Source: Faecalicoccus pleomorphus DSM 20574 (GTDB taxonomy: Bacteria > Bacillota_I > Bacilli_A > Erysipelotrichales > Erysipelotrichaceae). Taken from it: a DNA stretch of 64,000 nt. A model generated the notes under the pieces. The model was not told the DNA's origin, ran no database searches, and saw nothing but the letters and a program-made list of their open reading frames with translations. This document shows positions 45,967 to 59,665 of the stretch, in pieces (position 1 is the stretch's first letter; every line of letters starts with the position of its first letter). A program made the position numbers and the translations under genes. The stretch is from positions 1-64,000 of the forward strand of contig NZ_ATUT01000010.1 of the NCBI RefSeq assembly GCF_000420345.1, in the 5' to 3' direction.

Positions 45967-46057
45967 GGAGAAGTACTCAAGTGGTTGAAGAGGTGCCCCT
46001 GCTAAGGGTATAGGTCGGGAAACTGGCGCGAGAGTTCAAATCTCTCCTTCTCCGCCA
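45967..46057 (+). tRNA. tRNA-Ser (GCT)
   Basis: The acceptor arms GGAGAAG (45967-45973) and CTTCTCC (46047-46053) pair, with discriminator G and encoded CCA. The anticodon loop CTGCTAA gives GCT, reading AGC/AGU. A long variable arm (GGTCGGGAAACTGGC region) marks it as class II serine tRNA, and the T loop is TTCAAAT. Confidence 0.97.
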
Positions 46058-46078
46058 TTTTATTGAATATCTAACTTT

Positions 46079-46154
46079 GGTCCAGTGGTGTAGTGGTTAA
46101 CATGCCTCCCTGTCACGGAGGAGATCGTGGGTTCGAGTCCCATCTGGACCGCCA
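46079..46154 (+). tRNA. tRNA-Asp (GTC)
   Basis: Acceptor arms GGTCCAG and CTGGACC pair, with discriminator G and encoded CCA. The anticodon stem GCCTCC/GGAGG encloses TGTCA, giving GTC. The T loop is GGTTCGAGTCC. Confidence 0.97.
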
Positions 46155-46164
46155 TTTATTTTAT

Positions 46165-46238
46165 GCAGGTGTAGTTCAATGGTAGAACTTCAGCCTTCCA
46201 AGCTGACTACGTGAGTTCGATTCTCATCACCTGCTCCA
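46165..46238 (+). tRNA. tRNA-Gly (TCC)
   Basis: Acceptor arms GCAGGTG and CACCTGC pair, with discriminator T and encoded CCA. The anticodon loop CTTCCAA gives TCC for GGA/GGG codons. The T loop is AGTTCGATTCT. Confidence 0.97.
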
Positions 46239-46249
46239 CTTTGAATTTG

Positions 46250-46279
46250 ACGAACTTCATCTTGAAGTTCGTTTTTTTT
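46250..46279 (+). terminator. Terminator of the tRNA cluster
   Basis: ACGAACTTCA (46250-46259) pairs perfectly with TGAAGTTCGT (46263-46272) around a 3-nt loop, then T8. The rest of the gap to 46458 shows no supported gene. Confidence 0.93.
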
Positions 46280-46458
46280 GTTTGTCAAAATCAAATTTTC
46301 TTTCGTTTTCATGATCTATCTGAATCGATTATTTTTATTATGAATGCTATATGTTGTTTTGAACAATTTGTTGTTTATAAATATGGTGTTTGAATCACTG
46401 GAGGATATTATCTTTAGTATGCTATTTTTGATGAACCATAAAAAGCTAAAAGAGATAA

Positions 46459-46488
46459 TTTGAATTTTTATCGATAACTATTTACAAT
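46459..46488 (+). promoter_or_regulatory. Promoter giving a leaderless DUF1848 transcript
   Basis: TTGAAT (46459-46464), an 18-bp spacer and TACAAT (46483-46488), which ends six bases before the ATG at 46495. The predicted start of transcription is the A of the start codon. Confidence 0.6.
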
Positions 46489-46494
46489 GACTTT

Positions 46495-47373
46495 ATGATT
46501 ATCAACGTAAGTGGAAGAACAGATATTGTAGCTTTTTATACACCATGGTTTTTAAATCGAATGAAAGAAGGATATTTTCTTGTCCGGAATCCTTTTGATC
46601 CCCATTCTATTTCACGCATTTATATTGAGAATATTGATTTGATCGTTTTTTGTACTAAGAATCCATTGCCGATTTTAGATTCTTTGCATACGCTACAAAA
46701 ACCATTTCTTTTTCAAGTCACCTTTACGCCTTACCATAAAGACATTGAACCTTATGTACCAGATAAAAGACTGATTTTGAATGCCATTCGTAAGCTTTCA
46801 AAGCTTTCTAAAGAGTCTAAACCACTGGTTCGATATGATCCTATCTTATTAAACGCAAGATACGATGTGAAATATCACATAAAAGCTTTTGAAAAGATGT
46901 GCATGGAATTAGAGGGTTATGTGGATCGAATCATCGTGTCGTTTGTAGATGACTATAAAAATGTCAGAAAACATCAAATAGAATTACAAATCAAAGAGTT
47001 TACGGAAATAGATTACAAGTTGATCGGAACTTCTTTTTCTCAAATTGCCAAAGAACATGGTATGAGTGTTCAGACATGTTTTGAACAGCGAGATCTTTGT
47101 GAGTATGGCTTTCGTAAAGATGTGTGTATGTCAGTCGAAGAAGCTTTCTTGATTACCGGTAAAAAGTTTAAAAAATGGAAAGCTCGTGACTGCGGATGCG
47201 TTGAAATGGTCGATATCGGACAATACAATACGTGTCGACATTATTGTAAATACTGTTATGCCAATTTTGATGAAAAAAGAATTGAAGAAAATGTTCGATT
47301 ACACGATCCAGAAAGCGCTTTGTTGATAGGGAATGTACAACCACAGGATCAAATTCGAGTGCGTAGAGGTTGA
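46495..47373 (+). CDS. DUF1848 family protein (radical-SAM-like)
   Basis: The 292-residue protein matches DUF1848: it starts MIINVSGRTDIVAFYTPWF, has FCTKNPLPIL and LVRYDPILLN, and carries a C-terminal cysteine cluster, CGCVEMVDIG then TCRHYCKYCYAN. The latter's C-x3-C-x2-C spacing is that of radical SAM [4Fe-4S] sites, though at the C-terminus rather than the N-terminus. It is probably an iron-sulphur enzyme of unknown reaction. It stands alone between tRNA genes, has no Shine-Dalgarno and seems leaderless. Confidence 0.88.
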   Translation: MIINVSGRTDIVAFYTPWFLNRMKEGYFLVRNPFDPHSISRIYIENIDLIVFCTKNPLPILDSLHTLQKPFLFQVTFTPYHKDIEPYVPDKRLILNAIRKLSKLSKESKPLVRYDPILLNARYDVKYHIKAFEKMCMELEGYVDRIIVSFVDDYKNVRKHQIELQIKEFTEIDYKLIGTSFSQIAKEHGMSVQTCFEQRDLCEYGFRKDVCMSVEEAFLITGKKFKKWKARDCGCVEMVDIGQYNTCRHYCKYCYANFDEKRIEENVRLHDPESALLIGNVQPQDQIRVRRG

Positions 47374-47534
47374 TGTGGTTTAGTAAACCAAATTGTCCTC
47401 TATCTTTACTTCATCTTAAAAACTATACATTTGGAAGAATATCACATATTTCGAAGAGTAAAGGCCAGTTCAAAAATATTTAAAAAGTTATATGGCAATT
47501 TTTCCAAGCTAAAGTGAAAAAGTAAAAAATGTTC

Positions 47535-47563
47535 TTTACATTCGTCATTAAATTGGGTACAAT
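47535..47563 (+). promoter_or_regulatory. Promoter of tRNA-His
   Basis: TTTACA (47535-47540), a 17-bp spacer and TACAAT (47558-47563), about 39 bp before the tRNA. In the preceding gap a small palindrome TGGTTTAGTAAACCA (47376-47390) may end the DUF1848 transcript. Confidence 0.75.
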
Positions 47564-47601
47564 AGACAAGCACATGGAAAGAATATCCAAGCGCATTTTA
47601 T

Positions 47602-47678
47602 GGCGGTTGTGGTGAAGTGGTTAACACAGCGGATTGTGGCTCCGTCATTCGCGCGTTCGAATCGCGTCAGCCGCCCCA
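47602..47678 (+). tRNA. tRNA-His (GTG)
   Basis: Acceptor arms GCGGTTG and CAGCCGC pair with one G-T, and the extra 5' G (47602) faces discriminator C75, the histidine identity pair. CCA is encoded. The anticodon loop TTGTGGC gives GTG. The T loop is CGTTCGAATCG. Confidence 0.97.
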
Positions 47679-58502: not shown

Positions 58503-59186
58503 ATGATCAAAGTTGCCTTGTTAGAGTATGAAAAAGAATCTATGGAAGTTGTTTTTTCCCTGGCGAAAGTTTTTGATACGCTGGATTGGACATTTCGTGT
58601 CTTTACAAAAGCCTCGGAACTGGCAAAACGCATGAAGGTGGAGGATTATCAAATCTTTGTCTTTGATGAGGTATTTAAGACACCTCGTTTGGAAAGTGTA
58701 TTTGTGCATGATCATCCCAGTGCTTTGTTTATCTATCTGTGTAAAAATGTATTGGCGGTAAAGGGAAATGATCAAAGAAACCGTGTCTTATATATCGATA
58801 AGGCAAAGATTCGTCAGCAGATTGAAAATGAAAGAGAACTGCTTCTTTCACAATATCACCAAAGTGAATTCTATGAATTGAACTACGATGGAATCCATGT
58901 TCGATTGCCTTATCAGGATATTTATTATCTGGATAAAATGGAAAAGATGATTTATTTTCATACGCGAAAAGGGGAATTTCATGAGCGAGCTAATATGGCT
59001 GATTTAGAAGAACGTCTGGCTGATTTTGGATTTCTACGCGTACATGTGTCCTATCTTGTGAATGCCAAATACATCGTAGGTTGGTTTAAGGATGAAGTAG
59101 AACTTAGTAATGGTGATAAGGTGCCGCTTTCCAGAGCACAAAAAAAGAAGATTTTGGCTAAACAAAGGTCAAAAAAGACAATATGA
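58503..59186 (+). CDS. LytTR-domain regulator with divergent receiver-like N-terminus
   Basis: The 227-residue protein has a C-terminal LytTR DNA-binding domain (about 115-220): HVRLPYQDIYYLDKMEKMIYFHT, then FHERANMADLEERL, FLRVHVSYLVNAKYI and ELSNGDKVPLSRAQKKKI. The N-terminal part has a receiver-like fold with Asp in IFVFDEVF and a lysine in YLCKN, but only one acidic residue in the N-terminal pocket, so phosphorylation is doubtful. No histidine kinase is adjacent. LytTR regulators often control quorum-type or cell-surface genes. It lies right before the structured RNA at 59.24 kb. Confidence 0.85.
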   Translation: MIKVALLEYEKESMEVVFSLAKVFDTLDWTFRVFTKASELAKRMKVEDYQIFVFDEVFKTPRLESVFVHDHPSALFIYLCKNVLAVKGNDQRNRVLYIDKAKIRQQIENERELLLSQYHQSEFYELNYDGIHVRLPYQDIYYLDKMEKMIYFHTRKGEFHERANMADLEERLADFGFLRVHVSYLVNAKYIVGWFKDEVELSNGDKVPLSRAQKKKILAKQRSKKTI

Positions 59187-59207
59187 TAACCAAGATGGAC
59201 AGAGTGC

Positions 59208-59235
59208 TTGTGATCGTTTGAAAATCATATATACT
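59208..59235 (+). promoter_or_regulatory. Promoter of the candidate structured RNA
   Basis: TTGTGA (59208-59213), a 16-bp spacer and TATACT (59230-59235). It would start a transcript near 59242, after the LytTR gene has ended. Confidence 0.65.
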
Positions 59236-59241
59236 GTAAGT

Positions 59242-59665
59242 GAACAAAGGAAATAGAAGTAAGCGAAAGGTTTCCTTTCTAAATGAGACGATAGAGAGCG
59301 GTGGGAAGATGACAATAGTTTAATCGTCGGAAATTGATTTTTCCGGCAAAGCACGAAACTATGGAGAGAAGACTCCAAAGGGTATGTCGGAGCAATCCGA
59401 AAAAAACATTCCGTAAAACTTGGTGAATGCGTGGATGAAAGATTGGCAGGCTGGTAAGGCTGTCAGGTGATGGATTTCACAGATAAAACCATCTTTGCAT
59501 ATCATGAAGCTGTCATCTAATCCTACATAAAAAGAGCACAGACACCGGAATATTGGAGTAATCGGAAAATGCTGTGGAAAATACGTTATGTGGGTAACAT
59601 CTCAATAGATGAATTTATACAACAACTGAATTTGTAAGGCAAGACTTGTGGTCTTGCCTTCTTTT
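59242..59665 (+). ncRNA. Unassigned structured RNA of about 420 nt
   Basis: About 570 bp between two genes has no convincing ORF but shows a promoter, a strong terminator and many helices. They are 59246-59253 with 59271-59278 (8 bp); 59287-59292 with 59323-59328; 59315-59321 with 59356-59362, which forms an H-type pseudoknot with the previous one; 59328-59333 with 59340-59345; 59362-59366 with 59373-59377; 59387-59391 with 59396-59400 capped by a GCAA tetraloop; 59469-59473 with 59489-59493; and 59598-59602 with 59607-59611. The loops are purine-rich, as in functional RNAs. It lacks the tmRNA 3' end, SRP core, conserved RNase P sequences and T-box motif. It may be a stand-alone RNA or a long leader ending in a terminator. 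A decayed gene is the main alternative. Confidence 0.55.
59636..59665 (+). terminator. Terminator of the structured RNA
   Basis: AAGGCAAGAC (59636-59645) pairs perfectly with GTCTTGCCTT (59651-59660), followed by CTTTT. Confidence 0.9.

Follow-up and report, generated by a model that had tools for sequence, protein, structure and literature searches.

The 386-nt VR-RNA is driven by the VirR motif CCAnTT(n15)CCAGTT(n3)Cac, which has a step of 21 bp (PMC4963840). AgrA drives RNAIII by binding to direct repeats whose centre is near −60 (PMC4227749). Analysis of a 64,000-nucleotide stretch of the Faecalicoccus pleomorphus DSM 20574 genome (contig NZ_ATUT01000010.1, positions 1–64,000), which is referred to here as the window, pointed to a locus of this kind. 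It probably encodes a structured regulatory RNA of ~420 nt which has its own promoter and is under the control of the LytTR regulator whose gene lies immediately upstream. The features of the locus were as follows.

58503–59186, + strand: LytTR response regulator gene, presumed activator (Pfam LytTR, E 3e-17)
59169–59180, + strand: direct repeat A, TCAAAAAAGACA, 21 bp from repeat B
59190–59201, + strand: direct repeat B, CCAAGATGGACA, 21 bp from repeat A
59208–59235, + strand: promoter-like TTGTGA-16-TATACT, with a weak −35 and a −10 at a conserved distance from the repeats
59239–59250, + strand: 5′ leader of the transcript, AGTGAACAAAGG, common to other box-controlled transcripts
5′ end likely ~59240–59242, 3′ end likely ~59661–59665, + strand: structured RNA of ~420 nt
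59294–59317, + strand: conserved 24-nt segment GAGAGCGGTGGGAAGATGACAATA, ribosome-binding-like
59309–59323, + strand: mini-ORF ATG ACA ATA GTT TAA (MTIV, then stop)
59326–59347, + strand: hairpin P2, 8 pairs, double-sided changes at 8/8
59362–59377, + strand: hairpin P3, 100% of cells paired, one covarying pair (Merdibacter group)
59387–59400, + strand: hairpin P4, 5 pairs, double-sided changes at 5/5, 98.7% of cells paired
59419–59509, + strand: P5 domain, consisting of a basal helix (59419–59425 with 59503–59509), an inner helix and hairpins P5a and P5b
59512–59518, + strand: GTCATCT, which complements AGATGAC (59307–59313) across the mini-ORF start
59522–59594, + strand: helix P6 (59522–59530 with 59586–59594)
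59636–59665, + strand: intrinsic terminator, stem 59636–59645 with 59651–59660 (10–11 pairs), then CTTTT

The region between lytTR and the rubredoxin gene contained no credible long ORF and no protein-coding gene, and its open stretches gave no convincing match to Pfam. It was more stable than 100 of 100 dinucleotide shuffles (folding z = −4.4), and a terminator stem followed by CTTTT was rare in shuffles. On these points our analysis agreed with an earlier sequence-only reading, which had described a structured RNA without a credible ORF that ended in this terminator. The promoter which it had placed at 59208–59235 was also present, although the −35 is weak and nearby sites score equal to or above it. 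The ends of the RNA fitted the coordinates it had given (59242–59665); the repeats that would control the RNA (59169–59201), however, lie just outside them.

Comparison of the homologous sequences indicated that the core helices covary strongly. In a model-based alignment of 16 sequences, which leans towards the covariance model, 92.7% of cells paired, compared to 28–50% when the partners were slid as a control. Double-sided changes were observed in 70 cells against 22.8 in shuffles, and 0/500 shuffles reached the observed count. For P2, P4 and three helices of the P5 domain, an arm test, which needs no column alignment, gave a pairing of 0.96–1.0 within sequences and 0.55–0.67 across sequences; the corresponding values for the three P5-domain helices alone were 0.96–1.0 and 0.55–0.59. 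The arms were hand-picked from folds, a choice that benefits the within-sequence value. The helices were checked by arms and by the model-based alignment as well because MAFFT misaligned P2 in Holdemanella. Additionally, the P5 basal helix was recovered when the homologues were folded separately, and P6 showed compensatory differences between two congeners (L002 and L003), which were judged by eye and left uncounted. The GTCATCT and AGATGAC segments may pair to form a long-range helix closing the core, which was predicted in several homologues with weak covariation support. Outside the genus, the 3′ third of the RNA was poorly conserved.

An Rfam scan of the RNA returned nothing at the gathering threshold and only chance-level matches at E values up to 10. 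The Rfam covariance model of RNAIII (RF00503) did not match the RNA either. The Rfam scan of the window also showed a four-tRNA cluster at 45967–47675. A literature search on the RNA family, the reach of which stopped short of the supplements of large RNA surveys, found nothing. This is a real structured RNA, previously unlisted and with no Rfam family, as the sequence-only reading had proposed; its homologues show compensatory changes, and a conserved long reading frame, when sought among them, was not found.

By DNA search, the region was present in its own genus and in three other Erysipelotrichaceae genera. A covariance model built on the core (59293–59417) matched 17 of 315 genomes of the order, of which 15 were convincing, and by this model the RNA was absent from most of the order. 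Weak matches in G125 and G117 (L025 and L026) look like chance, falling on the start of a small membrane protein and on coding sequence. Homologues were thus counted in 14–15 genomes with one true locus each, which in one draft genome was divided across two contig ends. A scan of ~85,000 species genomes with the 24-nt pattern revealed members of the Erysipelotrichaceae only (Faecalicoccus, Faecalitalea, Absicoccus, Catenisphaera, Holdemanella, Merdibacter and relatives), plus one chance match. The latter (L106) is a near-identical segment that starts a sufC-like gene, named by eye, on an unrelated contig and is not an RNA homologue. The homologues span about nine Erysipelotrichaceae genera, and a search of phage and plasmid collections and viral contigs gave no match to the RNA.

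Wherever a locus had flanking sequence, the RNA immediately followed the same LytTR gene, on the same strand and with a spacing of about 75–150 bp. The downstream neighbour varied, being rubredoxin, a HAD hydrolase, another gene in Holdemanella, or an asparaginase-like gene (named by eye) in Merdibacter, where it is in the opposite orientation to the RNA. In one Merdibacter locus a transposase-like ORF, also recognised by eye, lies between murA and lytTR (L032:1190–2824), and the lytTR-RNA pair is intact. Four genomes (G004, G227, G208 and G209) had kept the LytTR gene with the RNA undetectable, and three (G226, G031 and G236) encoded the LytTR gene together with a divergent candidate RNA. No sensor kinase was seen adjoining the locus, and agrB, agrD and agrC were not seen beside it. 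The best match to an AlphaFold model of the regulator was full-length ComE, followed by LytTR-domain structures including AgrA. Structure comparison of this predicted model also matched its N-terminal part to receiver domains; the Pfam receiver model gave no match. The receiver Asp was present in most homologues, with Asn instead in the Merdibacter group.

These data bear on three other explanations of the region. A cis-acting leader or attenuator of the next gene, here rubredoxin, would agree with the shared strand and with a terminator ~100 bp before the rubredoxin start. However, the next gene differs by species and is on the opposite strand in Merdibacter, and the constant partner is the upstream gene; because the downstream genes change, this explanation is largely refuted and we consider it very improbable. 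A highly divergent form of a known housekeeping RNA is less credible still: the size is within the range of several such RNAs, but there was no meaningful Rfam match even at E 10, RNase P type B is encoded elsewhere in the genome, and most of the order lacks the window RNA by the covariance model. Least credible is the remnant of a decayed protein gene, which the sequence-only reading had offered as its alternative. The 38-codon open stretch on which it drew (SYIKRAQTPEYW...) does exist and has a protein-like composition, but its frame is interrupted by stops in the close homologues L002 and L003, it has no Pfam match, and the base changes in the region are compensatory. Because of the stops in these congeners, a decayed gene can for practical purposes be excluded.

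Analysis of the upstream sequences revealed the repeat pair to be present before every RNA promoter in the family, with a step of exactly 21 bp and a consensus of about CCAAWTTTNNCCA. When the promoters of the homologues were aligned on the −10, the repeats ended 28 bp before it. Box identity at 21 bp was 0.58 compared to 0.28 in shuffles across 16 promoters, with a z of 9.2 that is no strict probability because related sequences were included. The repeats of the window are an A-rich variant with a poorer fit to the family consensus. A LytTR dimer would bind the repeats and activate transcription, activation being preferred to repression solely because of the position of the boxes.

Shared promoter elements suggest that the regulator most probably also switches on several smaller RNAs encoded at other sites in the genome. 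When 15 RNA-bearing genomes were searched for the box pair followed at fixed spacing by a −10, 23 matches were obtained, compared to 6 for the reversed pattern that served as a control. Another set of 15 genomes, in which no LytTR homologue was detected, gave 10 matches against 9 for the control, and 0 had a TATAAT-like −10. Candidates were left out if they lacked either a good −10 or a plausible transcript downstream, and the gene names hisE, murI, rsmG, rRNA operon and asparaginase were assigned by eye. Behind hisE in the window's genome (G000:C2:35388–35454; L109, L145) there was a box pair, a promoter and a terminated transcript of ~165–200 nt, whose 5′ leader matched that of the window RNA and which was also found at G001:C52 and G002:C14. 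A short, terminated box-controlled transcript was located before murI in two genera (G000:C2:54294–54360, L151; G025:C46:9764–9830, L149), and another directly preceded an rRNA-operon-like promoter in two congeners (G001:C36:12278, L134; G002:C9:309, L132). Several of the box-controlled transcripts start with AGTGAACAAAGG.

Three genomes of the Merdibacter group (L032:5160, L060 and L061) encoded a second RNA that shares the box pair and the 24-nt segment with the first; in L032, the genome examined, it precedes rsmG, and its ORF is MTIESRCVKNHR followed by a stop, or a near variant. Box-like promoters leading to short transcripts were also present in two LytTR-bearing genomes, G228 (L160, L161), which has no core RNA, and G226 (L158), where a divergent RNA follows lytTR. 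These transcripts had a strong Shine-Dalgarno sequence and, immediately ahead of the terminator, an ORF of 6–7 codons (MNKFIS, MNKYIS and MAEPVSL, each followed by a stop). The term 'orphan', which had been applied to the RNA from its sequence, proved wrong because it took no account of the constant linkage to the LytTR gene, of the 21-bp repeats, of the mini-ORF and of the further small transcripts that share the promoter.

In the frame of the mini-ORF a stop was found within 18 nt in 16/16 homologues, compared to 4/16 in frame +1 and 0/16 in frame +2, a count in which same-genus sequences are not independent. The mini-ORF had 3–5 codons and three different lengths among the homologues. Together with the conserved start region and the Shine-Dalgarno sequences and 6–7 codon ORFs of the G228 and G226 transcripts, this stop distribution favours a transcript that mainly carries the mini-ORF, such that translation, stalling or drop-off on 3–5 codons matters and the structure controls access. 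On the other hand, the peptide is unconserved past MT/MK, the hisE and murI transcripts had no such ORF on inspection, and the strong covariation far from the ORF would need another reason; we consider this role unlikely. Equally doubtful is the broader proposal that an orphan receiver-like LytTR regulator runs short transcripts on which initiation and immediate termination on 3–7 codon mini-ORFs, and not antisense pairing alone, would be the regulatory act. The common working part of these transcripts would then be a ribosome-loading site on a 3–7 codon ORF.

The preferred reading remains a structured regulatory RNA under LytTR control, and the role of regulator that had been suggested for it from the sequence is supported as probable. 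The RNA would act post-transcriptionally in trans on target mRNAs, like VR-RNA and RNAIII. The ribosome-binding segment and mini-ORF may stabilise the RNA, or ribosomes may compete with the long-range helix that would close the core. For the Erysipelotrichaceae, gut bacteria with little known RNA regulation, this would be a candidate for a master-regulator RNA system comparable to agr or VirSR, comprising a defined regulator, a putative binding site, an RNA family and additional members. The conservation of the mini-ORF prompts the question of what role so short an ORF has inside a structured RNA.

Compared with the VirS/VirR system of Clostridium perfringens, the window RNA resembles VR-RNA in its size, in its presumed LytTR-type regulator and in two imperfect direct repeats that lie just upstream of the promoter at a step of 21 bp. 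As is proposed here, several RNAs (VR-RNA, VirT and VirU) belong to one small regulon; a comparable conserved mini-ORF is not described in the portion of the published account drawn on (PMC4963840). The gene for VR-RNA is apart from that of its regulator, whereas the window RNA adjoins lytTR and no adjacent sensor kinase was seen; the likeness is one of size and control arrangement. In streptococci CiaR controls several small RNAs that share promoter elements, although its regulator family differs from LytTR and its RNAs are not known to be related to the window RNA. The agr system of Staphylococcus aureus has, as here, a LytTR regulator (AgrA), upstream direct repeats and a long structured RNA with a reading frame, RNAIII (PMC4227749). 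RNAIII contains a full peptide gene and its promoter is divergent with the regulator operon, whereas the window RNA has a mini-ORF of 3–5 codons, a promoter that is not divergent, no Rfam match and no neighbouring agrB, agrD or agrC. The window RNA is probably a trans-acting, LytTR-activated RNA and in its upstream logic a functional analogue of VR-RNA or RNAIII.
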